A stretch of DNA of 17,881 bases from assembly GCA_020216655.1 (NCBI GenBank), contig JAIWNU010000043.1, forward strand, positions 1-17,881, in the 5' to 3' direction. The DNA is from Treponema sp. Its GTDB lineage: Bacteria; Spirochaetota; Spirochaetia; Treponematales; Breznakiellaceae. Below are positions 959 to 17,881 of this stretch, piece after piece; the stretch's first letter is position 1, and each line of letters opens with the position of its first letter. The notes beneath the pieces were generated by a model that did no database searches, was not told the origin of the DNA, and worked only from the letters and a program-made list of their open reading frames with translations. Made by a program: the position numbers and the translations under genes.

Positions 959-2626
959 ATGAGTATCCGCCTGAAAACAATAGTAGTCGTAATGCCCCTT
1001 TTGATAGCCTCTGTTGTGCTTGCGGGAGTTTCTTCCTATTTTTCTGCTGCCTCGGCAGTGACCCGGCTTGCGGTAGATTTTCTTACGTTTAAGGCGGAGG
1101 AACTGGAAAATTATGCCAACAGCCAATGGAACCTTCTGGTGGATAACGGTTTTGTAGGCCGGAGCGACATGGAGCAGGCTGCCCAGACGGCGGTTCAGTC
1201 CTTCGGCCGCAGTATACTACGAAGTTCCACGGAAGCAATTTTTGCCATGGATAACAAGGGCTCCCTGGCACTGCAAATAGGCGCCATTGGCAGCTCTTCT
1301 GATCTTTCGGCGGAACTGGATGCCATACAGAAAGCTATTCCTGCGGGTCAGCGGGGCTTTGTAACCCTGTCCCTGGGTGGTATCGAGCGGGTGGCGGTTA
1401 CCTTTCCCTTTGTGCCCTTTGGCTGGCAGGTCTTTGTTTCCGAGCAGCGCCAAACCTTTTTTGGCGATGTGGAAACCATAGCCCAGACCACATTGTATAT
1501 ACTCCTCGGGGCAAGCCTTATCAGCATACTGCTCCTCCTCCTTATGACTGGATATCTAACCCGGCCTATCGAAAAGGTTGTGGGAGTCATGCGCCGGATT
1601 ATCGAGTCCAATAACCTCTCTGAACGGGTACCGGTGCTCTATAAAGATGAAATTGGGCAGCTCTCCCATACCTTTAATTTGATGCTCGAAGAACTGGACC
1701 AGGCTTACAACCAGATAAAGAAATATGCCTTCGAGGCCGTGGTGGCCCAGAAGCGAGAAAACCGGATCCGTAACATTTTCCAGCTCTACGTTCCCAAGGA
1801 TGTTATCGATGAGGTTTTCATGAACCCCGATAAGATGCTGGTGGGAAACAATCGGGATGTGTCCATTCTCTTTTCCGATATCCGGAGTTTTACCACTATT
1901 TCAGAAAAGATGGCCCCCGACGCCCTGGTAAATGCCCTGAACCGGTATTTTTCCATCATGGTTGATGTCATCGTGGCCCGGAACGGCATGGTGGATAAAT
2001 ACATTGGCGATGCAATTATGGCAGTCTTTGGCGCACCGGTGAGCCATGGCCACGATGCAATGGACTCAGTGCTGGCAGGTCTTGAAATGACCGAGGCCCT
2101 TACAGTTTTTAATGATGAGCAAAAACGATTAGGGGGGCCGGAGTTTAAAATCGGCGTAGGCATTAACTACGGTATTGTAACGGTGGGCAACATTGGCTGC
2201 GACAAAAAGATGAACTATACGGTCATTGGCGATACGGTAAACCTGGCTTCCCGGCTCGAGGGTCTTACCAAACATTATCACCAACCGATACTCTTTTCCG
2301 ACTATGTCTATGAGCATATCAAAGGGAAAATACCCTGCCGCATGGTGGACAAGGTAGCTGTTAAAGGCAAAACCCAGGGTGTTCCCATACTCACCGCCCG
2401 CAGGGAAATCAGCAAAACCGAAGCGGAAGCCTGGAAGATACACGAAGAAGCGGTGGATCTATACTATCGCCGTTCCTTTGGACGGGCTGCAGAGCTTTTT
2501 GAAAAGATACTAGCCTTGCTCCCCGGGGACGACATCGCGGCCCAATATCTTGAGCGCAGTCATCGTTATGCGAAAAATCCTCCCCCCGCCGACTGGGACG
2601 GGGTCGAGGTCATGACGGAGAAATGA
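959..2626 (+). CDS. Membrane-anchored class III adenylate cyclase with sensor, HAMP and TPR-like tail
   Basis: Predicted to convert ATP to cyclic AMP in response to an extracytoplasmic signal. The 555-residue protein has a transmembrane helix (7-25), an extracytoplasmic sensor region of about 145 residues (30-172), a second helix (176-198), a HAMP domain (199-252), a short coiled linker, and a class III catalytic domain (about 296-480). Catalytic residues visible are metal-binding D307 (FSDIRSF) and D351 (KYIGDA), base-selecting K347 and T421 (NYTVIGD), and transition-state N428 and R432 (VNLASRLE). The Lys/Thr pair is the class IIIb type and supports ATP over GTP. The C-terminal 75 residues are TPR-like and end in PPPADWDGVEVMTEK, a tail typical of spirochaetal cyclases. 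An in-frame ATG at 878 would add 27 unlikely residues in front of the first helix. I chose 959 because it follows a strong promoter and begins a clean membrane anchor. It heads an operon of overlapping genes. Confidence 0.93.
   Translation: MSIRLKTIVVVMPLLIASVVLAGVSSYFSAASAVTRLAVDFLTFKAEELENYANSQWNLLVDNGFVGRSDMEQAAQTAVQSFGRSILRSSTEAIFAMDNKGSLALQIGAIGSSSDLSAELDAIQKAIPAGQRGFVTLSLGGIERVAVTFPFVPFGWQVFVSEQRQTFFGDVETIAQTTLYILLGASLISILLLLLMTGYLTRPIEKVVGVMRRIIESNNLSERVPVLYKDEIGQLSHTFNLMLEELDQAYNQIKKYAFEAVVAQKRENRIRNIFQLYVPKDVIDEVFMNPDKMLVGNNRDVSILFSDIRSFTTISEKMAPDALVNALNRYFSIMVDVIVARNGMVDKYIGDAIMAVFGAPVSHGHDAMDSVLAGLEMTEALTVFNDEQKRLGGPEFKIGVGINYGIVTVGNIGCDKKMNYTVIGDTVNLASRLEGLTKHYHQPILFSDYVYEHIKGKIPCRMVDKVAVKGKTQGVPILTARREISKTEAEAWKIHEEAVDLYYRRSFGRAAELFEKILALLPGDDIAAQYLERSHRYAKNPPPADWDGVEVMTEK
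2617..2620 (+). promoter_or_regulatory. Shine-Dalgarno deciding among three consecutive ATGs
   Basis: GGAG lies inside the last codons of the cyclase gene. The following gene begins with three consecutive ATGs at 2623, 2626 and 2629, which are 2, 5 and 8 bases from this site. Spacing favours 2629, with 2626 possible. The first ATG overlaps the cyclase TGA stop, so translation is probably coupled. Confidence 0.45.
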
Positions 2627-2628
2627 TG

Positions 2629-3903
2629 ATGAACGGTACAGGCAGTCGGAGATGTGAAGCGCCCATTTTTCTGCTCTTTCTGGTCTGTCTGAGTCTTGTT
2701 TTACCGACAGCCGCTCATGCCCAGGCTCCCGAAGTGATAACTGCAGAGCAGGAAAACACTCAAGATAAGTTTGATAGCAGCCAGTACCTCATCCTATGGC
2801 GGGCCATGGGGGAAGCTGAAATGGCTTCTGAGCTTGAATCCTTTACCCGCTACATACTTCAGAACCTCAGGACCGCCATGGAACGGGATGGGTACCGGCT
2901 TGCGGACACGCTGCGAAATACGGACAGTACAAAAAATCTTGGCGAAGCTGCATTTGCCGCTGGAGTTCTGCAGAGGATCCGCTGGGTGTTTACGGTAGAT
3001 CTGGCACTCGAAGCCCAGCGTCTTTCCTGGCGTATGGCCGCCTATGACGCGGAGCGTAAAAGCCTCAGGTCAAGCGAAATCTATGCTGCCTATCCGGGCC
3101 TTTCGGTTCTACCCGCTTTGGATGAGGCGGTATCGCGTCTCTTACAGGACTGGAAAAGTGCTATCGCTCTGGATGCGGAAGTCCTGGACCTCACGGAACG
3201 ATCCCAGGTCTTTAAAGCCAAGCAGAATGGTGTGGAAGTCTGGTATGGTCCCCATGGGGAAGGAATCCTGGCGGGTACCATAAGTTCCGGTACTCTCGAA
3301 GCCCTGTACCTGCCCTTCCCTGAAAAAAGTCCCCTCTATGTGGAGCTCTATAAAGATGGATACTGGCCTAAAAGCCTGGTTCTGCCCAAGGGGGTTACAG
3401 ACAAGCCGGTAATGCTGCCGGCTCTCCAGAAAAAAGCAGTCCATGTCTGGGGAGTGGGAACGGAAGTTGGCAAACTCCTTGGGGCAACCTACCTGTACCG
3501 TTATTATCCTCTGCCAGACCGCTTGTACTTTAGATTCGACAATGCCCTCTGGGCTGGCTATTCGTTTCTGCCTGGAGCCATTCCCATCTTTCACGATGAA
3601 GTCCGCTTTGGGCTGGGTCTTTATTTGCAAAGCCGTACTGACTTTCCCCTCCGTATCAGTATTGGCACTGGAGGATCGGCCATATTCTCGGTTATCCCGC
3701 CTCTCCAAGATGCCCAGGCTCGTTCGGCCCTGGATATATTATTGGATCCCCTCTGGGTAACCCTGGAGTGGCACTTCCCAGTATGGGCTTTTGTAACGGA
3801 ATTCCGTCTTCCCTATGCAACGGGGTCGGGATTTATAAACCAGGGGTGGATCTCCGCCGGTGAAGGTGGCCCTTTTGTATCTGTGGGGGTGCTGATAAAA
3901 TGA
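2629..3903 (+). CDS. Secreted protein with PEGA-like domain and outer-membrane barrel-like C-terminus (paralogue 1)
   Basis: I do not recognise a named family. The protein (424 residues from 2629; 426 if it starts at 2623) opens with a signal peptide ending LPTAAHA before QAPE, a good signal peptidase I site. The next roughly 150 residues form an alpha/beta region (ILWRAMGEAEMASELESFTRYIL...) resembling the N-terminal modules of TolB-like periplasmic proteins. A short PEGA-like beta domain follows (about residues 200-270, SPLYVELYKDGYWPKSLVL). The remainder alternates aromatic and hydrophobic residues as in amphipathic beta strands (YLYRYYPLPDRLYFRFDN, EVRFGLGLYLQSR, WVTLEWHFPVWAFVTEFRL), which suggests a small outer-membrane barrel. 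The gene has the same module order as the gene at 4965 and is likely its paralogue. It overlaps the cyclase before it and the lipoprotein after it by four bases (ATGA), so it belongs to the cyclase operon. Barrel and location are inference. Confidence 0.8.
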   Translation: MNGTGSRRCEAPIFLLFLVCLSLVLPTAAHAQAPEVITAEQENTQDKFDSSQYLILWRAMGEAEMASELESFTRYILQNLRTAMERDGYRLADTLRNTDSTKNLGEAAFAAGVLQRIRWVFTVDLALEAQRLSWRMAAYDAERKSLRSSEIYAAYPGLSVLPALDEAVSRLLQDWKSAIALDAEVLDLTERSQVFKAKQNGVEVWYGPHGEGILAGTISSGTLEALYLPFPEKSPLYVELYKDGYWPKSLVLPKGVTDKPVMLPALQKKAVHVWGVGTEVGKLLGATYLYRYYPLPDRLYFRFDNALWAGYSFLPGAIPIFHDEVRFGLGLYLQSRTDFPLRISIGTGGSAIFSVIPPLQDAQARSALDILLDPLWVTLEWHFPVWAFVTEFRLPYATGSGFINQGWISAGEGGPFVSVGVLIK

Positions 3904-4931
3904 GTAGATTGATGAACCTCCGCCGCATCTTTAGTTTCGTTTCCCTTTGTTGTATCGCCGCTTTCGTCCTGGTGAGCTGCGCCTTCCTTGTAATGGATTA
4001 TTTTCCTGCCTACCTCGGCCAAGAAATGGCTGCGGCAGATTTTTCGGAAATTCTAAAATCTGCGGGGCTTCCGGACTCAACGGAGCTCCATGATATCTAT
4101 CTCTTAACCGTACCAGGGTCGGGCAAGAAGTTCGTGGTCTTAAGGGTCGGATCATTTATGGCTCCTAAGTCCCTTATATTCCTAGATGGTGCTGATCTCC
4201 GTTTTCTTCGCTCATTTACGAATATCCCATTAGGAAAGTTTATTACGGTAGATATGGAAGGCTATATAGTAACCGGGTGGGATTACCAACTAACCAGGAT
4301 AGATCCTCAGAGCTTAACTAAAGATACTGTGCCACCGAACCCCAATCTTTCTGTGTCTTCTGCCCAGTTCGCCTTTACCGCTAGTGTTGGTATTGATATA
4401 TCAACCTATCTAGTGGGTATAGAGTCTGGTAATATAAAGTTAATTGTATATAAAAATGATTGGTCTTCAGGTTCTGAAAATCAAAAATCTAATATATTTT
4501 CTTACCAGCCAGTAAGCAACTTTGAATACCGTGATCTTTATTACGACGGTACTGGCGTTCGGATGGCGGTGAACAATATAGAAACCAAAGAATCATATAT
4601 TATTTCTTGGGATACTCTGACAAAATTTGCCGATGCATTTACATCTAGTTATAGTTATCTTGCTGAAAATGCTTCCCATGTTGTTATTGTTCCCCGGGGA
4701 GACGGAAAATACGGCGGACTAACCAAGGCGGGTTATATTCAGCTTATGTATGGTTATGAAAACAAGACGATTCTTGACCGGAGAAACACAACAACCGGAC
4801 AACAAGAGCTGCCTGTTTTTACCATGCCGGACAATTTCCGTGGCCGTTATGCATTTTTCCGCGATGCCTCAGCCTGGGTGCTTTACAATGAGCGGGATGG
4901 CAAGCTCCATCTTTTAAGGCCCTGGTGGTAG
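3900..4931 (+). CDS. Predicted lipoprotein, unknown function (first of two in the operon)
   Basis: The 343-residue product begins with a basic, hydrophobic leader ending in LVSC, a lipobox with the acylated cysteine at residue 27. The mature part is beta-rich with repeated short strands (FVVLRVGS, SLIFLDGADLRFLRSF, FITVDMEGYIVTGWDYQLTRI). This is compatible with a propeller-like or beta-sandwich surface protein, but I recognise no family. The start overlaps the preceding stop (ATGA). Bases about 4270-4670 are noticeably richer in A+T than the flanking genes, although the frame stays open. Its pairing with a barrel-like partner immediately upstream is repeated by the next two genes, suggesting that each lipoprotein works with its barrel partner in the envelope. 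That link is inference. Confidence 0.82.
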   Translation: MSRLMNLRRIFSFVSLCCIAAFVLVSCAFLVMDYFPAYLGQEMAAADFSEILKSAGLPDSTELHDIYLLTVPGSGKKFVVLRVGSFMAPKSLIFLDGADLRFLRSFTNIPLGKFITVDMEGYIVTGWDYQLTRIDPQSLTKDTVPPNPNLSVSSAQFAFTASVGIDISTYLVGIESGNIKLIVYKNDWSSGSENQKSNIFSYQPVSNFEYRDLYYDGTGVRMAVNNIETKESYIISWDTLTKFADAFTSSYSYLAENASHVVIVPRGDGKYGGLTKAGYIQLMYGYENKTILDRRNTTTGQQELPVFTMPDNFRGRYAFFRDASAWVLYNERDGKLHLLRPWW

Positions 4932-4950
4932 CTTATGAGAAGAGCATATT

Positions 4951-4955
4951 GGAGG
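4951..4955 (+). promoter_or_regulatory. Shine-Dalgarno selecting the ATG at 4965
   Basis: GGAGG is nine bases before the ATG at 4965. The in-frame ATG at 4935 has only a weak GGTGG upstream. The downstream start also yields a more typical signal peptide. Confidence 0.5.
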
Positions 4956-4964
4956 TTGCGGCAG

Positions 4965-6233
4965 ATGGATTTCAGGCCTGCTTATAAAAAGTATAGGTTT
5001 TTTCTCTTTATTGTGGGCTTCATCTTTATCTGCAGTCTGCCCCTCTTTGCTCAGGATAAAGAAGAAACCCAGAAAACCCCGCCTCCGCGGGCCTTTGTTA
5101 TCCTGGTTTCCCCGGATATGGATGGTATCTGGTTTAACTCCCTCTGGTACAACCTGGGACGCCTTTCCCGCCTGAGAGAACTGTACCGCTGGGTGCTCGG
5201 GGAAAAGAAGGCTGAGACGGAATCCACTGCCGCCCCGATCACCGAATCAGAAGTCCAGGCTTCCCGTCGCTGGGCAGCCCTGCACGACTATGGCTTTATT
5301 CTTGTATTGCAGCGGGAACCAAACTCCGGTCCAGACCAGGTCCGTATATCCTACCGAGTGGTGGATGTCATTTCAGGGCAGGAGCGGCTTTCGGGAGTTC
5401 TTGAGGACCGAACTCCCGATGAACGGGACCTGGAAGAAATATTTTGGCTCCCCCTTATGGCTGAACTGGACTCCCTGGAAGCCCAGAAAAATGTGGGACT
5501 CCTCACGGTGCGGGCCCTGCCGGGCACCAAGGTTATAGGTATTGGCTCTGACCCGCCTCTGATAGATGAAAGCGGCGAAGCTCAAGTACAGATAGCGATC
5601 CCCGGTACCTACCGCTGGAAAGCAGAAGCCCGTGGAATGACAACTGCTTCTGGTATTATAAGCCTCCGGGAAAGCCCTGCGGAACTAGTTATTTCCCAGC
5701 AAAGGATTAGCAGTTGGACCTTAGAAGCGGGGGTCCTGATGGGCCAATTTGGTGACCTTTGGATTTCTAAGCTCTTTGCAAAGGAGCAATATTGGATAGG
5801 TTTTGGTCTCCAGCAGTATTGGATCGGCATAAACTATCCGAGCCCTGAGGATCCTTTTCCCTATTCTGAGCCGGTTATATCTTTACCTATGATCCAGCCG
5901 GGCCTCTGTGTTGGATATCGCTATTATGACGAAACATCCTTCCTCCGCCCTTACATCTCTGGGCTCATGATGGCCAGACTAAATACAAGCCTCATGATGC
6001 TAGATCCGGTGGCTCCCTGGGTCATCTATGGAAACGGAGGTCTCGAATGGCGTCTGCTTCGTTCTTTGGCCTTCTTTGCGGAAGCCAGCGCAGCTTACTA
6101 TCCCATGAGCATGGGACGTTTCCTTGTAGCAAGCAAGATTGGTGAAAACCGAACTCCTTCGACTTATATTTTTGCCGAAGACTGGTTTCTGGAATTTCCC
6201 CTTTTTAGATTGGGAGTGCGTTATTTTCTATGA
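4965..6233 (+). CDS. Secreted protein with PEGA-like domain and barrel-like C-terminus (paralogue 2)
   Basis: The 422-residue protein begins with a signal peptide (KKYRFFLFIVGFIFICSLPLFA, cleavage before QDKEE). An alpha/beta module follows (RAFVILVSPDMDGIWFNSLWYNLGRL... to about residue 170). A PEGA-like domain comes next (GLLTVRALPGTKVIGIGSDPPLIDESGEAQVQIAIPGTYRWKAEARG, about 180-240). The C-terminus has aromatic strand-like stretches and ends in LFRLGVRYFL, as outer-membrane barrel proteins do. The order of modules matches the gene at 2629. An alternative start at 4935 adds ten residues; I prefer 4965 because of its ribosome binding site. The stop overlaps the next gene's start (ATGA). The signal peptide and architecture are visible, while the barrel and its cellular role are inferred. 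Confidence 0.8.
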   Translation: MDFRPAYKKYRFFLFIVGFIFICSLPLFAQDKEETQKTPPPRAFVILVSPDMDGIWFNSLWYNLGRLSRLRELYRWVLGEKKAETESTAAPITESEVQASRRWAALHDYGFILVLQREPNSGPDQVRISYRVVDVISGQERLSGVLEDRTPDERDLEEIFWLPLMAELDSLEAQKNVGLLTVRALPGTKVIGIGSDPPLIDESGEAQVQIAIPGTYRWKAEARGMTTASGIISLRESPAELVISQQRISSWTLEAGVLMGQFGDLWISKLFAKEQYWIGFGLQQYWIGINYPSPEDPFPYSEPVISLPMIQPGLCVGYRYYDETSFLRPYISGLMMARLNTSLMMLDPVAPWVIYGNGGLEWRLLRSLAFFAEASAAYYPMSMGRFLVASKIGENRTPSTYIFAEDWFLEFPLFRLGVRYFL

Positions 6234-7276
6234 AACAAAGAATGATTGTTTGTGATAATCCGCAATTGAGCAGGCTGCTCCTTATACTGCTCGCCGTACT
6301 AGCCTTCTCGTCTTGCTGGCATCCGCCCTTTGACCCTGATATTTCCGCTTCGGTTATAACAACCCAAAAACTGGGGAATCCGGTATGGGAAGTCCGAACC
6401 CGGCTCCCCTCCAATGCCCGGGGGGGCTACTATGTGCCATCGAGAACGAATTATGAACAGGGATTATGGATAGGCTATAATAACAGCAGACTAAGCCTGA
6501 GTCATTTTTTTTATGATTTCAATTCAAGCAAAGCGTTATTAGACAGCTATATGGAAATCCCCCTTCCTTCGGATGTAGGGAGAAAAATAATCCCCTCCAT
6601 TGGAGCTCCGAGTATTTTTTTTATGACTTTTTCTGTTTTTGACAAATGGCTGATTTATAAAACTATTGAAAATTATTTTGTTCATTCATCTGCATATCCA
6701 GGCTTTTTAGGTACTGGTTTCCAATATGGCACTCCAACTGATATTCTGTATATTGCCGAGATGGTCGACAGCAAGATACAAATACATTACATCGAAGTAA
6801 GTGGAGACCCAAGTAGTGATTTTAATTATTTCACTGATTTTACCAACGGTTATAGTTACCTCCCCTCCGAACTACCTACTACGGTAACCTTGGCTGTACC
6901 GACATCTTCGGGGGAACTCTACCTTTCCGGTACAAAATCAGACGGTTCAGCGGTAACCTGGTTTTGGTCAGACTATGGAGAGGTTCCACAAAAGCTCCCC
7001 ATAGACAAACCCCTTACGGGGATCCTCTCTGATGGGAGACTTGTAGCTGACATGGGAGACCGGCTTTATGTATACAGCCCTGATGGTTATTCATCCTTCT
7101 CCATTCCCACAGGGGCCCTTCATTTTTCCTATGAACGGTACGACAATGATCAGCCGCGCTGGCTCTCAGTGTTCACGAGAACTATTGAAATTCCAGTTCC
7201 CCACAGTGGGGATGCTGACTATATTATTTCTATTTTTGAGATACCGACGAGCCGGCTTTCAGAATTGGCCCAGTAG
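6230..7276 (+). CDS. Predicted lipoprotein, unknown function (second of two in the operon)
   Basis: The 348-residue product has a hydrophobic leader (LLLILLAVLAFSSC) with a spirochaete-style lipobox and acylated Cys at residue 29, followed by WHPPFDPDIS. The mature chain is rich in Tyr, Phe, Ser and short beta strands (QGLWIGYNNSRLSLSHFFYDF, GELYLSGTKSDGSAVTWFWSD, DRLYVYSPDGYSSFSIP), hinting at a repeated beta fold. No family is recognised. It overlaps the upstream barrel-like gene by four bases and is the last gene of the cyclase operon. Bases about 6470-6860 are A+T-rich compared with the flanks, as in the other lipoprotein gene. It converges on the minus-strand gene ending at 7294, with only 17 bases between the two stops and no clear terminator. 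Confidence 0.8.
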   Translation: MKQRMIVCDNPQLSRLLLILLAVLAFSSCWHPPFDPDISASVITTQKLGNPVWEVRTRLPSNARGGYYVPSRTNYEQGLWIGYNNSRLSLSHFFYDFNSSKALLDSYMEIPLPSDVGRKIIPSIGAPSIFFMTFSVFDKWLIYKTIENYFVHSSAYPGFLGTGFQYGTPTDILYIAEMVDSKIQIHYIEVSGDPSSDFNYFTDFTNGYSYLPSELPTTVTLAVPTSSGELYLSGTKSDGSAVTWFWSDYGEVPQKLPIDKPLTGILSDGRLVADMGDRLYVYSPDGYSSFSIPTGALHFSYERYDNDQPRWLSVFTRTIEIPVPHSGDADYIISIFEIPTSRLSELAQ

Positions 7277-10428: not shown

Positions 10429-11901
10429 CTAACTATCGCTTCGACACTGCTCTAATTCTTTTAATCGGCGGTCTTCCAATACTATATGAAGATTTTTTTC
10501 CTGGGTTGGTATGACGAGCCCCTTGGGGCCGTTTTTTGCCCGCCGCAGGAATTTTACCGGCGTATAAAAGAGGTCCCCTTCGCCGTTGTTCCGTCCCTTA
10601 GAGTAAAAAAGAGCCAGGTTCCCTGCATCTAATAGTATGTCCAGAGGTACGGTTTTTCCAGCCCTGGCTTTGATAAACACATAGGAGCCTGGGTAGTCCC
10701 TGGCATGGAGCCACAGGTCGCTGCCCTTAACATAATGCCGTAGAAGGTCATCGTTTTCTGTCGCATCCCGGCCGACAATAAGCATCCAGCCGTTACGGAT
10801 AAAAGTGAGGCCCGGCCGTTTTTTATCTTCCGGTTTTATAATCTGCCGTTCTTTCTGCAGAGCCCGGTGGAGCCGTAATGGATTGTCTTCTGCTAAAAGG
10901 TCTAGGAGCTTCTGCTCGAGCCGTGCCTGTTCTGCCTCGCCCCGTTCAATTTCTTCTTTGACTTCTAGCAGTCCCGTTTTGGCCTTCCGGTACTGTTCAT
11001 AGTAGATTTCCGCGTTAGCCTGGGGAGTCTTTTGCGGATCCAGTTTGATGCGCACCTGCTCATTGTTGTAAAAATTAAGGCCCTCAAACCAGCTGTCGCC
11101 GGTCCTTATCTGGTGGAGATTGGCCATCAATATATCGCCGTATTCTTTAAGGGTTTCTCCCTTCTCGTAGGATGCTTGTTTTTCCCGCAGCCGTTCCAAA
11201 GATGCGGCAAGACGGCCCAGTCGGCCTTCGTAAAGCTTTTTTGCCTGCTCCCGGAGGGCTTCCAGCGAAAGGGCGCTTCCCTGTTCTGCATAGTAGGCAT
11301 CGATCTGTTCGTTAAAGGATCCGGGGCTCTCAAAGGAGCGGATTTCGAAATTTCGTTTTGGCCGCACCGCTGCCGATGCATCTTCAACCTGATCTTGAGC
11401 CCCCTGGCTTCCCTGATCTGCTTGCTGAGCCGCTTGCTGAGCTGCTTCGGGTTGGTAAGAACCCCCGCTGATTTCTCCCCGCTTTGGGCTGCGGCGCATC
11501 ACGTCCAGGATTTTACCTTCCGTATCGGTAACAATAACATTGGCCGCATTTGACCAGAGCCTTACATATATGCGGTACAAGAGGTCTCCCCGGCGTACGG
11601 TGATGCGGACTATCCGGTCTTCCCCCAGCTGGACAGCCTCAGTGATCCATCCGTTTACGATACGGGACTTTAGGAATTCCGCAAAGCGCAGGGGCTTCTC
11701 CGGCTTTGGCACCGCACGGTATGTGGCATGGAGCCTGCAAGCCCCCGGTGTCAGCGCTACAAGCAAGGTGGTAGCTTTGCCCCCTTTGTAAAGCTGGAGG
11801 GCTAGCACATCATAGGCGCTTTGAATAACCCCCTGGATTTGTGATCCTTCCAGGGAAAGCTCAGAGAGCACAAGATTTATTTCTTTCCAATTTAGTGACA
11901 T
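10429..11901 (-). CDS. NFACT/RqcH-like ribosome quality control protein (FbpA family)
   Basis: By family, RqcH binds stalled 50S subunits carrying peptidyl-tRNA and recruits Ala-tRNA to add a C-terminal alanine tail. The 490-residue protein shows an NFACT-N domain (1-150) including the functionally important Asp-Arg pair at D95-R96 (LGEDRIVRI) and LWSNAANVIVTD. A coiled-coil region spans about 215-345. The NFACT-R domain (about 355-475) has the characteristic GSDLWLHARDYPGSYVFIKA. It is shorter than typical homologues (about 560 residues), and the region after NFACT-N contains a Gln/Ala-rich insert (about 153-188) that looks like a flexible linker. An older alternative name is fibronectin-binding protein FbpA, but the intracellular role is better supported for the family. 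It begins with GGAG five bases before the ATG and heads the minus-strand operon. Confidence 0.9.
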   Translation of the reverse strand: MSLNWKEINLVLSELSLEGSQIQGVIQSAYDVLALQLYKGGKATTLLVALTPGACRLHATYRAVPKPEKPLRFAEFLKSRIVNGWITEAVQLGEDRIVRITVRRGDLLYRIYVRLWSNAANVIVTDTEGKILDVMRRSPKRGEISGGSYQPEAAQQAAQQADQGSQGAQDQVEDASAAVRPKRNFEIRSFESPGSFNEQIDAYYAEQGSALSLEALREQAKKLYEGRLGRLAASLERLREKQASYEKGETLKEYGDILMANLHQIRTGDSWFEGLNFYNNEQVRIKLDPQKTPQANAEIYYEQYRKAKTGLLEVKEEIERGEAEQARLEQKLLDLLAEDNPLRLHRALQKERQIIKPEDKKRPGLTFIRNGWMLIVGRDATENDDLLRHYVKGSDLWLHARDYPGSYVFIKARAGKTVPLDILLDAGNLALFYSKGRNNGEGDLFYTPVKFLRRAKNGPKGLVIPTQEKNLHIVLEDRRLKELEQCRSDS

Positions 11902-11919: not shown

Positions 11920-11947
11920 AGTATATCAAAACTGACAGACTTTTGAA
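11920..11947 (-). promoter_or_regulatory. Extended -10 promoter for the NFACT operon
   Basis: The minus strand carries TATACT (11920-11925) preceded by TG plus one base, giving an extended -10. A weak -35 TTCAAA (11942-11947) lies 16 bases upstream. The predicted start near 11913 leaves a leader of about 12 bases that still holds the GGAG ribosome binding site. The -35 overlaps the 16-base repeat at 11938-11953. Confidence 0.45.
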
Positions 11948-11953
11948 ATTGGC
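11938..11953 (+). repeat. 16-base repeat, left copy
   Basis: GACTTTTGAAATTGGC here is identical to 16727-16742, in the same orientation. The left copy lies 45 bases before the four-gene radical SAM operon and the right copy lies 131 bases after it. The right copy forms one arm of a perfect hairpin, whereas the left copy retains only a weak opposing TCAAAA (11926-11931). Confidence 0.7.
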
Positions 11954-11998: not shown

Positions 11999-12586
11999 AT
12001 GGATATAAAAAGTGCGATGCTCCGGTTCCTTAAGTCTCCTTTGGGCCTCATCGTGATGGGTCTTAACATCCTTGGCGCAGCTCTCGCGATGCTTTTATTT
12101 CATTTCCCCATTATGGTTGTTTTGCCAGTTTTTATCGTCATTGCCCTGGCAGATGTCATTGTCCTTTTACAGACCGAAACGGGGGCCCGGTCGGTGATTG
12201 CGGAGCAGGATCGGGAACGGGCTGAACGGGACGCCCGTATTTTAGGCGGTGTGGCGGCAGCGCGGAAACGGCTCAGCATGCTTCGTTTTGACACAGGACC
12301 GGTAAAAGAGGCGGTGGACCAGCTTGTATTTGCAGCGGGACTATATTTAGAAGCTACCGTAAAAGGTTCAGGCCGGGATCCCTTAATAGAGGATGCTATT
12401 ATTGGTGCCCTTGAAGTTGTGGATGAATATCTGCATCAGATAGATATGATTAAGAGTGAATCGCTGCTTACATCAGGAGAAGGTCAGGATGCCCGTATTA
12501 AAGATTTCTCAGCCCATACAGCGGCAATAGTAAAGCAGTCTGTGGAAGAAGTTACCCGCCGGCTCGGGCAGATCGAATCGCAGTAG
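11999..12586 (+). CDS. Small membrane protein with two N-terminal helices and a cytoplasmic helical domain
   Basis: I recognise no family. The 195-residue product has two adjacent transmembrane helices (about 15-34 and 37-57, a hairpin). A charged helical region follows (RDRERAERDARILGGVAAARKRLSM...) and continues to the C-terminus. The start ATG is the only reasonable one and has no Shine-Dalgarno sequence. The gene ends 15 bases before the TTG start of the DUF2207-like gene and is therefore the likely first gene of the radical SAM operon. A helper that anchors or organises the tail-bearing membrane protein is possible, but nothing in the sequence shows this. Confidence 0.78.
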   Translation: MDIKSAMLRFLKSPLGLIVMGLNILGAALAMLLFHFPIMVVLPVFIVIALADVIVLLQTETGARSVIAEQDRERAERDARILGGVAAARKRLSMLRFDTGPVKEAVDQLVFAAGLYLEATVKGSGRDPLIEDAIIGALEVVDEYLHQIDMIKSESLLTSGEGQDARIKDFSAHTAAIVKQSVEEVTRRLGQIESQ

Positions 12587-12601
12587 TTTAGGGGGAGTCC
12601 A

Positions 12602-14323
12602 TTGAATAAAAATAAAGCATGGTTTTTGGGTGTCTTTGTATCGATAATGCTGCTAACCGCAATCCCTGGGCCGCAGCTCCAGGCCCTCGATGCGGATCTT
12701 GCATCGGTGGAAATTTATATCACCCTCCAGAGCGACGGCAAGGCTGTGGTCCAGCATGCTCTTGAATGGAGGGTGGCCTCTGGTACCATGGGGGGCTTTT
12801 ATTTTCAGGGAGAAGCGGCCCCCTTTGCCTGGGACCAGGCGCGCTGCTGGGCCGATACTGCCGATGGCAGACGATTACCCCTAGATATCCGTAGAGCTGG
12901 TGATAAATGGGATGTGCTTCTTGCCAATTCCCAGCGTCTTTCAGGCACAAGCCACTGGGTGCTCACCTACGGTGCGGATCTTGCCGCCGCAGGCATGCTC
13001 AATAGAACCTACAACAGTGAGCGAGGCAACCTCATTGTGTTTAATTGGGCTCCGCCTGTTTGGGATGAGGCATTGGAACACCGTACGATAACAATCATTT
13101 TACCGATACCAATAGCCAAGAATGCACAGGGTGATAGCAGGTCTGCGGAGCTGGAAGCATTTGGTTTTGCTACCGAAAAATTTGTAAACGCCAGGAATAA
13201 AATCGACTGGTTTGCTGTTCCTGGACAGGATGGTGCATACTACCTGGCGCTGCGTTTCCATGAGGCACCGGTACAAGCGGGCGGCACAAATCAACTGCAA
13301 TGGTATCTTTCGGAAGATAAGGTTGCCTCCTCTTTCGACCCCTTTTTATCGTCCCGCAGAGGCTCTAAAGAATCTCCGTCTAACCAAGATGATTTGTCAA
13401 CTCCCAATGAGCCCGCAGGGGGCAAGGAACCACCTACGCCCGCATCCCATCCCATCCTTTTTATCTTTCTCTCAGGCGGGCTTGTTGCCCTGGGGGCCTT
13501 TTTATTCCGTAAAAAGGTCCAGGATTTCCCCCGGGTTGTTGCGAAAGCAGAAGGGATAGCCTGGGCAGGGGATTCATGGATACCGCCCCGGCTTGTGGAA
13601 GGAACCTATTCGGTTCCAGGCAAGATAGCAGAAAACCTGCATCCCCTCGAAGTAGCCATGCTCTTTGAACTGACACTTCCGCAGATAGTAGCCATTATGA
13701 TTCAGACCCTGGAAGCACAGGGAACAATAAAATTGATGCAGGAAGCGCCCCTCAGGATCCAGATCCTGAAAAGCCCCTCAGAGCTTGGGGGCGCCATTGA
13801 GGCCGCAGACGCCTATGGAGAGCTTTTCCTTAAAGCCTTCGATACCGAGGGCTGGGTCCTGTCGGGCCTTTTGGCAGATTTCTTTGAGGCGGTCATTAAG
13901 GGGCTTCAGGAAAAGGTGTGGGACTGCGATATCGAAGCAACCAAGGCCTACTACCGCAAAAAAATGGAAGCTCCGGATGAATCTGATATCGGTAGTACCT
14001 CCGCTGCTCGGTCCCAGAGCCGCTTGAGTTCTACCTATTACCCCTATTGGCATTCCTATTATTATCTTCATCATCATCCTGACCATTTTAGGCCCTATGG
14101 ACTTCCCAAAGAGTTTTCTGGAACCTACGCTGCTTTCATGGCTTCCAGTTCCTGTTTCTCTGGCTGCTATTCGCCAAAGAACCTTTCTGGCACCGCCGAA
14201 GCCTGTTACTCTGCCTGTCATAATGCCTGCCATTCGGCATGTCATCAAGCCTGTCATTCTGCCTGTCATAGCGCCTGCCATTCTGCCTGTCATTCAGCCT
14301 GCGTTTCAGGGGGCGCCCATTGA
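12602..14323 (+). CDS. DUF2207-like membrane protein with Cys-His repeat tail, candidate substrate of the adjacent radical SAM enzyme
   Basis: The start is a TTG at 12602 after GGGGGAG (12591-12597); only this start gives a signal peptide (about 6-28). The 573-residue protein has an extracytoplasmic beta-rich DUF2207-like domain (30-240) and a polar linker. One transmembrane helix follows (about 284-301, then RKK). The cytoplasmic region includes a winged-helix-like segment (LHPLEVAMLFELTLPQIVAIMIQTLEAQGTIKL, 346-378). After a Tyr/His-rich stretch (478-500) the C-terminus contains C518 and C522 and then nine tetrapeptides ACYS, ACHN, ACHS, ACHQ, ACHS x4, ACVS (534-569), ending GGAH. Nine cysteines are spaced exactly four apart. 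The DUF2207 relation is from motif memory. Related families with low-complexity Cys/Gly tails are known, and this His-bearing version is a distinct variant. The stop overlaps the radical SAM start. The tail could instead bind metal. Confidence 0.85.
   Translation: MNKNKAWFLGVFVSIMLLTAIPGPQLQALDADLASVEIYITLQSDGKAVVQHALEWRVASGTMGGFYFQGEAAPFAWDQARCWADTADGRRLPLDIRRAGDKWDVLLANSQRLSGTSHWVLTYGADLAAAGMLNRTYNSERGNLIVFNWAPPVWDEALEHRTITIILPIPIAKNAQGDSRSAELEAFGFATEKFVNARNKIDWFAVPGQDGAYYLALRFHEAPVQAGGTNQLQWYLSEDKVASSFDPFLSSRRGSKESPSNQDDLSTPNEPAGGKEPPTPASHPILFIFLSGGLVALGAFLFRKKVQDFPRVVAKAEGIAWAGDSWIPPRLVEGTYSVPGKIAENLHPLEVAMLFELTLPQIVAIMIQTLEAQGTIKLMQEAPLRIQILKSPSELGGAIEAADAYGELFLKAFDTEGWVLSGLLADFFEAVIKGLQEKVWDCDIEATKAYYRKKMEAPDESDIGSTSAARSQSRLSSTYYPYWHSYYYLHHHPDHFRPYGLPKEFSGTYAAFMASSSCFSGCYSPKNLSGTAEACYSACHNACHSACHQACHSACHSACHSACHSACVSGGAH
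14201..14308 (+). repeat. Nine tandem 12-base units coding the Ala-Cys-His-Ser tail
   Basis: Nine in-frame 12-base units encode ACxx tetrapeptides. Cys is written as TGT or TGC, Ser as TCT, TCG, TCA or AGC, and Ala as GCC or GCA. The units therefore differ at synonymous positions while Ala and Cys are invariant and His is kept in seven of nine. This pattern is expected from selection on the protein and not from recent replication slippage. Confidence 0.9.
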
Positions 14324-15702
14324 AAGGCCCATTGAAAGCCTTTGCGGCAATTACCTCCCCCGCACCGGCGTCCTTAAGCCTTGCATGGATAGATGAATTC
14401 TGGAGCCGGGCCGGAGCCTATATTTTTTGCCGTGATCTGGATCAGGTACTGATTTTGCCACCCAACCGGGTGTATCGGACCAATGAAACGGGTATACGAC
14501 TTCTTACTTTGCTTAAACAGGGCTATTCTATCCAGGATATCAAATTCCCTTCTCCTCAGGCACGGGAAGATACGGCCCGGTTTTTCGGAGACCTGGCAGC
14601 CCTGTATCGGGGCGACCGGCCGGTAAATGGAACCCTTTTTGCCCAAACCTACGATTTTCAGTTTACCCAGCTTCCGGTATTGGCTGAATTGGCCCTTACC
14701 TATCGGTGCAACAACGCCTGCCGCTTTTGTTATGCAGGCTGTGGCCTTCCAAACGGTACCAGTGCTGCGGAAGCCCAGCACCCGGAACAAGATACGGCTG
14801 CCTACAAACGGATTATCGATATCTTTGCTGACCAAGCCCAGGTTCCCTTTTTTTCTTTTACCGGCGGAGAGCCCACCCTTCGTCCAGATCTAGAGGAACT
14901 GATTGCCTATGCCCGAACAAAAAATCTTGTGACGAATCTAGTAACCAATGGAACGCTCATTACGGAAGAACGGGCCCAGGCTCTTAAAGCTGCGGGGCTC
15001 GGAAGCGCCCAGGTGTCGGTGGAAGGCCCCAGGGCGGATGTGCATGACAGCCTTGTGGGCAGCCACAGCAGCTTTGATGCGACCCTTCGGGGTATTGCGG
15101 CCCTGCAGCGGGCCGGTATTCCCACCCAAACCAATACGACCATCACAAGGGATAACATCGATCTGATACCCCTCATGCCCGCCTTCCTTTCAGGGCTTGG
15201 TGTCGAGCGCTTTGCCATGAATTTGTTTATACCTACCATACCGGGAGCCGAAGCAGACCGGCTCTTTGTAGCCTATGAGGAAATTGGAGCCCTGGTAGAC
15301 CGGGTAATGAAAGAAGCCCGTACTCGAGGCATGACCTTTTTTTGGTACAGTCCCACACCCTTCTGCTCCTATAACCCCATAGCCCGAGGGCAGGGAAATA
15401 AAAGCTGCGCGGCCCTGGACGGCCTTCTTTCAGTAGCACCCGACGGTTCTGTACTTCCCTGTTCAAGCTGGGATGAGCCCCTGGGCAACGTGCTTGAACA
15501 ATCCTTTCGAGAGATTTGGTTTGGTTCAAAAAGCGCTTTTTTTAAGGAAAAACATTTTGCTCCCCAGCCCTGCAAAAAATGCCCATCCTTTGTTGCCTGC
15601 CAGGGTGCCTGTCCCCTCTACTGGCGCTATACAAAAACCTGTCCGCCGGGTTTGGAACAACTAACGCAGGCAGCTCAGTCTGCCGAAAGGAGTGACTTAT
15701 GA
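14320..15702 (+). CDS. Radical SAM/SPASM peptide-modifying enzyme with PqqD-like N-terminal domain
   Basis: Predicted to modify a peptide by S-adenosylmethionine radical chemistry in the cytoplasm. The TTG at 14320 overlaps the upstream TGA and follows AGGGGG by six bases; a second TTG at 14332 is possible. The 460 residues comprise a PqqD-like (RRE) region at about 32-100 (VLILPPNRVYRTNETGIRLLTLLKQGYSIQDI) that could bind the substrate. The radical SAM core is at about 118-340, with the cluster-binding C130, C134 and C137 (CxxxCxxC) and GGEP at 182-185. A SPASM domain holds C363-x12-G-x4-C381, then C418, C421, C427, C431 (CxxCx5CxxxC) and C441, enough for two auxiliary clusters. C141 and C349 are extra cysteines. 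Immediate coupling to the Cys-His tail gene makes that tail the prime substrate. Thioether or other crosslinking is possible. Class is firm; substrate is inference. Confidence 0.93.
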   Translation: MKGPLKAFAAITSPAPASLSLAWIDEFWSRAGAYIFCRDLDQVLILPPNRVYRTNETGIRLLTLLKQGYSIQDIKFPSPQAREDTARFFGDLAALYRGDRPVNGTLFAQTYDFQFTQLPVLAELALTYRCNNACRFCYAGCGLPNGTSAAEAQHPEQDTAAYKRIIDIFADQAQVPFFSFTGGEPTLRPDLEELIAYARTKNLVTNLVTNGTLITEERAQALKAAGLGSAQVSVEGPRADVHDSLVGSHSSFDATLRGIAALQRAGIPTQTNTTITRDNIDLIPLMPAFLSGLGVERFAMNLFIPTIPGAEADRLFVAYEEIGALVDRVMKEARTRGMTFFWYSPTPFCSYNPIARGQGNKSCAALDGLLSVAPDGSVLPCSSWDEPLGNVLEQSFREIWFGSKSAFFKEKHFAPQPCKKCPSFVACQGACPLYWRYTKTCPPGLEQLTQAAQSAERSDL

Positions 15703-16595
15703 TTCCGGTTTCTGTTCCCTATCGAATTTCGGGTCTGTCTACCGACTCCCGCCTTATTGTGTATTCTATCGTAGCAGTCCTTGGCATACTGATACAGGTT
15801 TTTGTTCCCCCGTACAGGACCGCAGGTATTTTTATGATGCTCTTGCCGCTTCCTTTGCTCAGTGCCCGTCCCTGGACTAATAAACCAAAGGATCTAGGAG
15901 AAGAGAATTGGCAGGCGGTTACCGATGCGGAAGTGGATCGGATTGCTGAAAACTTTAAGAATGCCCGGAAAATCCGCATCCCCCTCTGGTACCGCCCCGG
16001 TTTCGGCATACCCTTTACGATTATCCTGGCGGTTCTCTCCTTTGTGTTTGACCTTGAACGCACTATCCCTGGCATCCTTTGTATGGACGCCCTTATTCTT
16101 CTCTGGCCCGCCCTCTATTTTCTCAAAATTATGATTTGGATTCCCCGCCAATTTGAACTGATTATGACCGCCATTCAGGCGGCTCGGACTGTTTCGCTGC
16201 CTGCTGGCATTCACTGTACACCCTATCTCCGATTTGACCGTGACAGGGAGGGCCTGCGCATTCCGGAAGACTGCAGGCTCATGTATGAAATCCGCAACAA
16301 GCCGGCAGACCTCGTGGGTGTTCAGGTCCAGGTAGCCGTCAATAACGGACCGAACGGCGAAGTTCCCTATATGTATGCGGTCGTGCTGACCCACGGCCAG
16401 GGACAGACCTGGAAGAAAATTATCAGCATGGGGCTGGACCATAAATTTGTGGTGGAGCCGGGAGGCGATGAAGACTATGGTACCGTTGTCATCAGGCAAA
16501 AAACCGATGACGGGGGCTACCATACCACTAAGGATGACTGCAGAACTTTGATCTATTGGGTAATTCAAATTTTGGAAAAATTGGCATCAAATTGA
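15699..16595 (+). CDS. Membrane protein of the radical SAM operon, unknown function
   Basis: The 298-residue product overlaps the radical SAM stop by four bases (ATGA) and follows AAGGAG at a six-base spacing. It has hydrophobic stretches at about 19-37 and 42-55, then a polar loop (EENWQAVTDAEVDRIAENFKNARKIRIP). Two more helices follow (FTIILAVLSFVFDL and PGILCMDALILLWPALYFLKIMIWI). The final 140 residues are soluble and beta-rich (LVGVQVQVAVNNGPNGEVPYMYAVVLTHGQGQ...). No family or catalytic motif is recognised. Its fixed coupling to the maturase suggests it takes part in the same process, for example by holding the modified membrane protein or helping to move it, but this is inference. Confidence 0.82.
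   Translation: MIPVSVPYRISGLSTDSRLIVYSIVAVLGILIQVFVPPYRTAGIFMMLLPLPLLSARPWTNKPKDLGEENWQAVTDAEVDRIAENFKNARKIRIPLWYRPGFGIPFTIILAVLSFVFDLERTIPGILCMDALILLWPALYFLKIMIWIPRQFELIMTAIQAARTVSLPAGIHCTPYLRFDRDREGLRIPEDCRLMYEIRNKPADLVGVQVQVAVNNGPNGEVPYMYAVVLTHGQGQTWKKIISMGLDHKFVVEPGGDEDYGTVVIRQKTDDGGYHTTKDDCRTLIYWVIQILEKLASN
16578..16589 (+). repeat. Direct repeat flanking the palindrome cluster, left copy
   Basis: AAATTGGCATCA at the very end of the preceding gene is repeated exactly at 16735-16746, and similarity continues for a few bases beyond. The two copies bracket the palindrome cluster, as a duplicated target would, but 12 bases could also reflect shared repeat sequence. Confidence 0.5.
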
Positions 16596-16596
16596 G

Positions 16597-16629
16597 GTTC
16601 TTTCAAAACTCAGGGAGTTTTGAAAGAAC
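16597..16629 (+). repeat. Perfect 15-bp hairpin directly after the radical SAM operon, possible terminator
   Basis: GTTCTTTCAAAACTC and GAGTTTTGAAAGAAC pair perfectly across a three-base loop, starting one base after the last gene's stop. Position suits transcription termination or 3' end protection. There is no T-run after the stem, so it is not a canonical intrinsic terminator. Confidence 0.65.
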
Positions 16630-16633
16630 TACC

Positions 16634-16718
16634 TTGAAATCCGCGATTTAGCGCGACGGTTGCATGCGTTCTATATGAAACAGCATGCAACCGCAAGCAA
16701 TCGCAAAGCCAATTTCAA
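16634..16718 (+). repeat. Long imperfect hairpin with three stems
   Basis: Three nested arms pair in order: TTGAAAT (16634-16640) with ATTTCAA (16712-16718), GCGATT (16643-16648) with AATCGC (16699-16704), and CGGTTGCATGC (16657-16667) with GCATGCAACCG (16683-16693). The apical loop is 15 bases. It could be a small structured RNA, a palindromic repeat unit or a protein-binding site. No coding frame explains it. Confidence 0.55.
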
Positions 16719-16742
16719 AAGTAACCGACTTTTGAAATTGGC
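16708..16742 (+). repeat. Perfect 15-bp hairpin overlapping the long hairpin
   Basis: GCCAATTTCAAAAGT (16708-16722) pairs perfectly with ACTTTTGAAATTGGC (16728-16742) across a five-base loop. Its left arm includes the outer arm of the preceding long hairpin, so the two structures exclude each other. The right arm is the second copy of the 16-base repeat found at 11938-11953. Confidence 0.7.
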
Positions 16743-16785: not shown

Positions 16786-17881
16786 TGGTACCCCCCTGGA
16801 CATTAGGCAGCCCATAGAGCAAGTTCAGCTTTATACTGAACCAGTAAGTTGTCAAGGATGACCGGCGGAAATACCACTGCGTCTGCCGGTAGTTCTGGGT
16901 ATGTCTCTCGTACCAGGTTTAACGGTGTATTACCCTTGTAACGATTATACCGGCCGCAATTAAACCACTTTTGGTAGTGCGCTGCTTTTTCCAAAAAATC
17001 CTGCTCAGAAGCAAACGTCTCAGCAGCATACAGTTCTTCCTCAATCCACCGATGGGAACTCTCCACATCACTTTGATAGGTCTTTGCTCCCGGTGGGATA
17101 CGATGATGATGGGCTCCCCAGCATCGTTCGACGAGCTTGGTGAATATCGTGACCTTAGTGCTGTTCCATGGGGCGGTAAACTCCGTCCCGTTGTCCGTTT
17201 GCACCACTGACCCCTCAAAACGAATCCCATACCGCTGAAAATGCTCATGAAGGGTGAGCAGAAACAGTGATGCGTTGGTGACACTCTTTTCCCGCCCATA
17301 GGCAATAAAGAGGGCCCCGGTACGAACACAGCGGGCGGTAAACTGGTATTTGGGTAGGTTATGCCGGCGATATTCCTCATACAACTCGGGAATGTCATCC
17401 AGATATTTTACATCCACCTGGAGCTTCTCCATGGCTTTCAGCCGCTGCTTCACCAGCCGTAAGTCTCGTTTCTTCTCCACCACCTTTCGCTGCGGCCGTA
17501 ATAATCCTTCAGCCCGGAGTATTTTCAGTACCGTCGTTACACTCACCGGTAGCTCTAATTCTTGCTTCAATCGCGTTGCACTCTTTCGTTTGCCTGCCCG
17601 CTGCAGTTCCTCTACTGCTTGCTTAAGCTTAAAGCGTATCCAGGGCTTCGTGGCTCGAGGACTGGTGTGTGGCCGGCGGCTCTGTTCGACAAGTCCTGCC
17701 TTCTTCTCTGCTTCATACCGCCTCACCCACTTCCTCACCGTCTTTACGGTCGTCCCATACTGATGAGCGGTAGGCTTAATACCATGCTCTAAAGCGGCTT
17801 CTACCAGCTCAAGCCTTGCTGCATACCGGTCTTTACTTATCTTGATAAACTCGTAATACTTCTTCTCGTACATTGGTACCC
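16786..17881 (-). mobile_element. IS481-like insertion sequence, right end at or beyond the window edge
   Basis: The element contains a complete transposase and little else. The left boundary is placed at TGGTACCCCCCTGGACATT, which resembles insertion sequence ends, immediately before the transposase stop. The right side has GGTACC just before the last base, but no matching inverted repeat can be completed within the window. Boundaries are therefore approximate. No target duplication can be checked. Confidence 0.7.
16803..17873 (-). CDS. IS481-like family transposase (DDE integrase core)
   Basis: By family it catalyses cut-and-join transposition of its own element. The 356-residue protein is intact. 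It has an N-terminal helix-turn-helix (about 20-55, YGTTVKTVRKWVRRYEAE), a second winged-helix segment (about 98-127), and an rve-type integrase core (about 145-300). The acidic catalytic residues are D154 (LQVDVKY), D227 (QTDNGTEF) and E271 (YQSDVESSHRWIEEE). The D227 to E271 spacing (43 residues between) is longer than the usual near-35, because of a small insert around HHHRIPPGAK. The ATG at 17873 lies only eight bases from the right edge, so its ribosome binding site is outside. Family placement is by motif and could also be a related rve group. Confidence 0.88.
   Translation of the reverse strand: MYEKKYYEFIKISKDRYAARLELVEAALEHGIKPTAHQYGTTVKTVRKWVRRYEAEKKAGLVEQSRRPHTSPRATKPWIRFKLKQAVEELQRAGKRKSATRLKQELELPVSVTTVLKILRAEGLLRPQRKVVEKKRDLRLVKQRLKAMEKLQVDVKYLDDIPELYEEYRRHNLPKYQFTARCVRTGALFIAYGREKSVTNASLFLLTLHEHFQRYGIRFEGSVVQTDNGTEFTAPWNSTKVTIFTKLVERCWGAHHHRIPPGAKTYQSDVESSHRWIEEELYAAETFASEQDFLEKAAHYQKWFNCGRYNRYKGNTPLNLVRETYPELPADAVVFPPVILDNLLVQYKAELALWAA

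Follow-up and report, generated by a model that had tools for sequence, protein, structure and literature searches.

Cys-rich tails of some TIGR04222 membrane proteins have been proposed as substrates of adjacent MNIO (DUF692) peptide-modifying enzymes (Antoine et al. 2025; PMC12452194). In the NCBIfam CXXX-repeat system, which comprises a target (TIGR04117) and an enzyme (TIGR04115), Cys at each fourth residue is, by the model names, a radical SAM target. Cys thioethers are also made by the radical SAM maturases of ranthipeptides/SCIFF peptides (CteB and PapB/freyrasin, the latter product with six Cys-Asp links) and by QhpD, whose substrate is a real protein (PMC8326336). Ordinary DUF2207 proteins, such as SMU.243 of Streptococcus mutans, combine a DUF2207 N-terminal domain with a low-complexity C-terminal tail, and SMU.243 deletion lowers acid and peroxide survival (PMC10457818). 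Here, we analyze a locus in a 17,881-nucleotide stretch of Treponema sp. DNA (contig JAIWNU010000043.1; the window), in which a membrane protein with a C-terminal Cys-His repeat (g2) is encoded next to a radical SAM/SPASM enzyme (g3) and a second membrane protein (g4). On balance, we think that g2, g3, and g4 form a protein-level analogue of a ribosomally synthesized and posttranslationally modified peptide (RiPP) system, in which g3 would modify the g2 tail and the tail would stay attached to its protein.

The initial annotation described four plus-strand genes with junctions of 15, −4, and −4 bases, and the open reading frames (ORFs) agree: g1 occupies 11999-12586, g2 12602-14323, g3 14320-15702, and g4 15699-16595, with overlaps of TTGA between g2 and g3 and of ATGA between g3 and g4. 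The g2 ORF starts with TTG and encodes a 573-aa tailed membrane protein on a DUF2207/TIGR04222-like scaffold. Its residues 535 to 573 (14204-14320) are a Cys-His-Xaa-Ala repeat with nine Cys at period 4 and the C-terminal sequence CVSGGAH. A nine-fold ACHS tail had been annotated; the nine period-4 units are there, but only five of them are exactly ACHS, the others being ACYS, ACHN, ACHQ, and ACVS. Tandem Repeats Finder reported three overlapping rows on the tail DNA, with scores of 97, 124, and 150.

Relatives were collected by scanning genome contigs with an eight-sequence g2 alignment, and the best 80 of 112 confirmed stretches make up 79 loci. By record title, 50 loci are of Spirochaetota type, 12 are from Elusimicrobia, 4 from Myxococcales, 3 from Planctomycetota/Phycisphaerae, 3 from Omnitrophota, and 1 each from Sumerlaeota and Clostridia, with 5 naming no phylum; the seven phyla are thus those of the titles, and misbinned contigs may be among them. 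The tail is readable in 77 loci (the contig of L045 ends inside it, and the frame of L048 is broken there), and in L060, L062, and L063 the g2 frame is open at the 5′ end. All 77 readable tails have the period-4 repeat at the C terminus, 69 with nine Cys and 8 with eight, and they comprise 39 different peptides. Across their 608 nonterminal units, Cys and Ala are each found 608 times and His 569 times; the remaining 39 units have Tyr, Val, or Phe and by count are all first units, and the last unit of the tail lacks His. The third position of the unit takes Ser, Asp, Asn, Gly, Gln, His, Ala, or Thr. Aligned across 24 members, the tail has 22 invariant positions out of 39 and the remaining protein 24 out of 534, and the mean majority-residue fraction is 0.90 in the tail versus 0.46 in the rest, where identity among relatives falls to ∼30%. 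In 73 of the 77 loci, the 30 residues preceding the repeat contain a Cys-Phe/Tyr-Xaa-Gly (C[FY]xG) element. A distant form, present in six Spirochaetota genomes of one further family, has open frames of up to ∼930 to 1030 residues and three-block tails.

The last CHSACV of the tail has 49 DNA spellings among 67 loci, and all equal-length pairs of tails together differ by 32884 synonymous versus 5899 nonsynonymous codon changes. This mostly synonymous change and the many spellings point to selection on the peptide, not on a DNA repeat. An artefact of DNA-level repetition is ruled out by the same variation, and a chance origin is ruled out by the presence of the same tail in 77 loci. Searches for the tail in plasmids and phages gave no match. 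A search of short proteins for the repeat found three, none of which qualified as a short stand-alone precursor. In one the repeat is interrupted, and the other two come from contigs 578 and 728 bases long; the target here has 573 aa.

The tailed protein and the enzyme occur together with few exceptions. Directly downstream of g2 lies g3 in 77 of 79 loci; the other two are L045, where the contig ends, and L057, which has g2 and g4. Among 296 Spirochaetota genomes, g3 was detected (E ≤ 1e-60) in 12, and all 12 have a tailed g2 on the same contig. A g2 match (E ≤ 0.001) was found in 17 of the 296 genomes, including these 12; of the other five, G053, G076, G081, and G178 have weak tail-only matches that look like simple repeats when read, and G227 has a partial match, described below. 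In the phylum of the Elusimicrobiales genome that carries L067, g3 is present in 8 of 198 genomes and g2 (E ≤ 1e-165) in exactly these 8, 3 of them being already within the 79-locus set; G332, G401, and G495 of this phylum have tail-only matches (E of 1e-4 to 1e-6). Taken together, g3 and a clear tailed g2 occur in the same 20 of 494 genomes from two phyla. The initial annotation, which had proposed the coupling, named tail proteins regularly lacking g3 as the pattern that would speak against it, and that pattern was looked for and not found. Even within the genus of the window the distribution is patchy: G001, its one single-contig genome, lacks g2 and g3, whereas g2 is present in the other three, among them that of the window.

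Ordinary DUF2207 proteins provide a contrast. The label "DUF2207-like" for g2 draws support from its relatives and not from the window protein: among 24 aligned members, Pfam DUF2207 matches 9 at E ≤ 0.1, with 1.1e-8 as the best value, but window g2 has no match. DUF2207_C scored 19.9 bits (cut-off, 33) in one distant relative, and TIGR04222 was found in 2 of 24 members at E ≤ 0.1 (best, 4.1e-5), scored 15.6 and 16.9 bits in two relatives (cut-off, 43), and gave no match to window g2. DUF2207 proteins (E ≤ 0.001) are present in 39 of the 296 Spirochaetota genomes, and 37 of these 39 lack g3. Thirty ordinary DUF2207 loci were fetched, and 29 gave a reading: 25 have a Gly-rich (Gly/Ser) tail, in most cases with Trp as the last residue; of the remaining four, two are cut and two have other ends. 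A CHxA tail occurs in none. Among the 39 DUF2207-bearing genomes, only G146 and G186 also have g3. In G146, the DUF2207 protein has a Gly-rich tail (L130) and the tailed g2 is encoded elsewhere (L093); for the G186 protein (L101), the fetched stretch stops short of the C terminus. The CHxA tail occupies the usual place of the Gly-rich tail, and because ordinary DUF2207 proteins mostly have that tail and no enzyme, a tail-plus-maturase module seems to have been swapped onto a DUF2207-type membrane scaffold. The shared position also fits a simpler account, in which the repeat is a low-complexity tail like any other in DUF2207 proteins and g3 adjoins it by operon inheritance only. We consider this account highly improbable: near-identical tails recur across the seven titled phyla on bodies with ∼30% identity, their codons change mostly synonymously, and g3 is kept beside g2 when nearly all DUF2207-bearing genomes do without it.

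In overall architecture, g2 has a signal peptide and one transmembrane (TM) segment. A beta-rich N-terminal domain (residues 30 to 244; 12689-13333), predicted to be extracytoplasmic, precedes the TM helix (residues 284 to 318; 13451-13555), which was assigned from an AlphaFold model and a charge count and has basic residues after it; the C-domain (residues 348 to 500; 13643-14101), largely made of helices plus one short beta hairpin, is predicted to be cytoplasmic and in relatives is weakly similar to TIGR04222 and DUF2207_C. Lys and Arg are richer after the single TM in 52 of 61 scorable relatives, with 2 opposite and 7 equal; the topology script left 18 of the 79 unscored, 15 without the anchor motif and 3 (L042, L043, and L044) without a TM over the threshold. 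Together with the AlphaFold model, this charge bias supports the earlier assignment of g2 as a membrane-anchored protein with a C terminus predicted to face the cytoplasm. In fold, the N-domain matches a domain of an oligosaccharyltransferase subunit, which we take to be ribophorin I/OST1, and the N-domains of M1 aminopeptidases; these matches are uninformative on the tail. The g2 profile had no hits among solved structures. Attachment of c-type haem along the tail could be read from its overlapping CxxxCH strings, in which an inner Cys is followed by His. The tail spacing, however, is CX3CH, whereas the usual c-type haem motif is CX2CH, and the tail is predicted to lie in the cytoplasm, where c-type haem is not known to be attached; we rejected this explanation as having a negligible chance of being right.

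The enzyme, g3, is a 460-aa protein with a TTG start that overlaps the g2 stop by 4 bases. Its annotation as a radical SAM/SPASM protein was borne out: the radical SAM core (residues 126 to 275; 14695-15144; C130-X3-C134-X2-C137) scores 88.7 bits with Pfam Radical_SAM (cut-off, 29.5), and the SPASM domain (residues 363 to 431; 15406-15612), with C418, C421, C427, and C431 in a CX2CX5CX3C arrangement, scores 42.1 bits (cut-off, 21.5). The motif CX3CX2CY is present in 73 of 77 locus ORFs and absent from L014 (a disrupted ORF), L029 and L061 (contig ends), and L043, the one true exception; CX2CX5CX3C is present in 72 of 77, and the five misses (L011, L014, L029, L041, and L061) are cut, masked, or disrupted. 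Matches of the g3 profile in the PDB include SkfB (5.9e-28), PqqE, 5v1q (which we take to be SuiB), MoaA, an anaerobic sulfatase-maturating enzyme, and 5wgg (presumably CteB), among others. None of the best 25 of 80 matching NCBIfam models exceeded its cut-off; the best score was with haem b synthase (136 bits versus 500), and the PapB model gave 66 bits versus 340. As for other candidates, PADLOC returned just viperin models, on the radical SAM core, and a known defence system was rejected; an apparent g2-g3 fusion in L048 was rejected as well, the frame being broken in the tail region.

Anatomy, conservation, and co-occurrence are direct observations. That the g2 tail is the substrate of g3 is likely, given the pairing and the conservation described above. 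For the modification itself, repeated Cys thioether links are a serious candidate, with a chance that we place just short of even. A doubtful alternative is that g3 modifies the tail by other chemistry, for example by Cys-His cross-links, formylglycine formation, epimerization, or a bound cofactor. Radical SAM RiPP and sulfatase enzymes catalyze several such reactions (in part from PMC8326336), the top NCBIfam scores of g3 are with haem-synthesis and PqqE-like enzymes, although far below cut-off, and 569 of 608 units preserve the order Cys-His. Yet SPASM enzymes with a Cys donor are a known thioether setting (PMC8326336), and nothing specific favors another reaction.

Metal binding offers a different explanation. 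By reading, IscU-like and IscS-like genes lie 3′ of g4 in nine loci each and in eleven loci in total, mostly titled Elusimicrobia and including L067 and L075, at a distance of ∼4.3 to 5.2 kb from the start of g2. Such neighbors would suit a tail that is an unmodified metal- or iron-sulphur-binding string, with g3 serving another step or a maturation linked to the metal site, and so would the Cys-His dyads throughout the repeat (8 to 9 Cys and 7 to 8 His in most tails) and the three-block tails of the distant spirochaete family. Metal binding, however, does not account for the invariance of Ala (608/608) or for the almost constant presence of a SPASM enzyme with several peptide and cofactor maturases among its solved relatives, and the IscU/IscS-like neighbors are limited to 11 of 79 loci. 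We regard an unmodified metal-binding tail as unlikely. Separately, an IscU-like gene is found ∼6 kb from g2 in L057.

If g3 does modify the tail, we envisage the following route. The low-complexity C-terminal tail of a DUF2207/TIGR04222-kind scaffold would have turned into a cytoplasm-facing (Ala-Cys-His-Xaa)n repeat. The enzyme would bind g2 via a domain resembling a RiPP recognition element (RRE), probably at the conserved pre-tail C[FY]xG element, and the radical SAM and SPASM clusters of g3 would then act on the tail unit by unit. The likeliest product would be a Cys thioether ladder. Because Xaa is free, Ala and Cys are invariant, and His varies in the first unit only and is absent from the last, the acceptor would be the invariant Ala (at its alpha carbon) or His, not Xaa. 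SkfB is reported to accept Ala as an alpha-carbon acceptor (PMC8326336). The modified tail would stay on g2 as a stiff or metal/redox-active appendage with g4 as a partner; a metal or redox role is a possibility that we would rather doubt than assume.

Several observations weigh against this route or the coupling behind it. The PqqD-like (RRE) region annotated in g3 (residues ∼20 to 105; 14377-14634) scores 17.7 bits, below the Pfam PqqD cut-off of 23.4, and PqqD is found in just 5 of 20 g3 relatives at E ≤ 0.1 (best, 9e-5). Unlike ranthipeptide and QhpD substrates, the repeat has no conserved Asp, Thr, Asn, or Glu acceptor, and its length is variable, with 4 Cys in L161 and 10 in L087. In L043, a full-length g3 (2352-3791) has Ser in place of the first radical SAM Cys next to an intact tail. 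The L029 and L061 contigs hold just the start of g3, and their genomes yielded no further full g3 (a 63-position piece; nothing at E ≤ 1e-20). In G298, a tailed g2 and g4 (L057) have no g3 beside them. G227, which is 69% complete, has a partial g2-like match at a contig edge (E of 3.7e-9; N-domain) and no g3, and in G186 the g3 reading is split over two frames. In favor of the coupling, distances of the g2 body (tail removed) and g3 correlate with an r of 0.947 across 65 of 79 loci (maximum of 999 permutations, 0.198; 13 cut or broken loci were left out by hand, as was L057, which has no g3) and of 0.887 in 44 Spirochaetota-like loci, but such covariation is expected from plain co-inheritance too. 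As a separate observation, G298 also contains a second tailed g2 (L113), on another contig, with g3 and g4; one g3 may serve two tails in this genome.

Like the TIGR04222/MNIO systems, the locus combines a membrane scaffold, a low-complexity C-terminal tail with spaced Cys, and an adjacent, here putative, peptide-modifying enzyme. In PMC12452194, however, the enzyme is an MNIO, the tails are Gly/Ser with Cys and predicted to be periplasmic, and MNIO is absent in 490 of 1372 TIGR04222 genomes; here, the enzyme is an RRE-like/radical SAM/SPASM protein, the tail is a strict CHxA repeat predicted to be cytoplasmic, and the g2-g3 pairing is near absolute. No MNIO (DUF692) gene was found in the operon, where Pfam matches (radical SAM, SPASM, Fer4, and PqqD) are on g3 only, the rest of the genome being unsearched. 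The TIGR04117 model (98 positions) covers the tail stretch only and stays below its cut-off of 50 bits (best, 20.8; window tail, 12.2), with no match over cut-off in the 296 Spirochaetota genomes, and TIGR04115 scores 25.5 bits with g3 (cut-off, 350). From ranthipeptide maturases and QhpD, the locus differs in that the substrate would be the tail of a membrane protein, with QhpD set apart by description and not by sequence.

For window g1, g2, and g4, Pfam gave nothing at E ≤ 0.1, and no NCBIfam model exceeded its cut-off. With no such model for g2 or g4, and none among the best 25 for g3, the system would pass unnamed in such annotation, and a search of open-licence PMC literature found no publication naming it. 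The initial claim of an undescribed system thus stands for the g2-g3-g4 combination, which is unnamed in the libraries searched, but not for its elements, since the NCBIfam CXXX-repeat target family and the Cys-rich TIGR04222/MNIO tails (PMC12452194) precede it; what sets the locus apart is that the Cys repeat modified by a radical SAM enzyme would here be a membrane protein tail. More tentatively, and with more doubt than confidence, we suggest that DUF2207/TIGR04222 proteins may be a display platform for exchangeable tails, each with its own maturase (none for Gly-rich tails, MNIO for Cys-rich tails, and radical SAM/SPASM for CHxA tails), the CHxA tail becoming an uncleaved, unexported thioether-ladder rod at the cytoplasmic membrane face.

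The third core protein, g4 (298 aa), is a membrane protein with a soluble alpha/beta domain and a conserved partner, adjoining g3 in 69 of 79 loci. In eight of the other ten, the contig is short or ends; in L057, g4 is next to g2; and in L027, a masked N run lies between g3 and g4, for which reason a g3-g4 fusion there was rejected. The AlphaFold model of g4 has a predicted local distance difference test score of 84.6, and its fold search gave no PDB match at E ≤ 0.001. The unit had been annotated as four genes, but g1 (195 aa; two hydrophobic N-terminal stretches by reading) was ruled out as a core gene by its patchy presence: tblastn matches it in 28 of 79 loci, single-linkage clustering recovers it in 38 of 79, at ∼0.6 kb upstream of g2, and it was not found in loci titled Elusimicrobia, Omnitrophota, or Planctomycetota. 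It is accessory, in Spirochaetota-like loci, and the core is g2-g3-g4. In keeping with the earlier description, no peptidase or exporter stands out among families common to many loci, where neighbors were read by eye and not family-scanned.

The window comes from a 2.66-Mb assembly in 251 contigs, and its g2 is 79% identical to that of the nearest named relative listed, a metagenome-assembled genome titled Gracilinema caldarium. Directly 3′ of g4 is a 15-bp perfect inverted repeat (16597-16629), a possible transcription end for which the terminator scan made no call. The four-gene block is flanked by palindromic repeats that share the core ACTTTTGAAATTGGC (11923-11953, 16597-16629, and 16708-16742), with copies of ACTTTTGAAATTGGC at 11939 and 16728 and an inverted arm at 16708; they are possibly an intergenic repeat family or an insertion mark. 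Downstream, the block is adjoined by a 356-aa ORF (16803-17873, minus strand) with Pfam HTH_28 over cut-off, which from its sequence may be a transposase, a name not given by any family match. Upstream, an adenylate cyclase gene (878-2626) precedes a row of four ORFs (2623-7276; 426, 343, 432, and 348 aa) whose starts read as signal- or lipoprotein-like and for which Pfam gave nothing at E ≤ 0.1. Two ordinary genes on the minus strand encode a Memo-like protein cut by the window edge (1-858) and an NFACT-family protein (10429-11901).

If our reading is true, radical SAM peptide chemistry would serve to make a lasting component of a membrane protein, not a released peptide, in seven titled phyla and with a single, almost unchanging sequence, an unusual case of peptide-type modification on a large membrane protein. 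The uniform repeat would be a substrate for reading out one SPASM reaction. The locus would also give a testable handle on the large DUF2207/TIGR04222 families, for whose tails we found no role in print.

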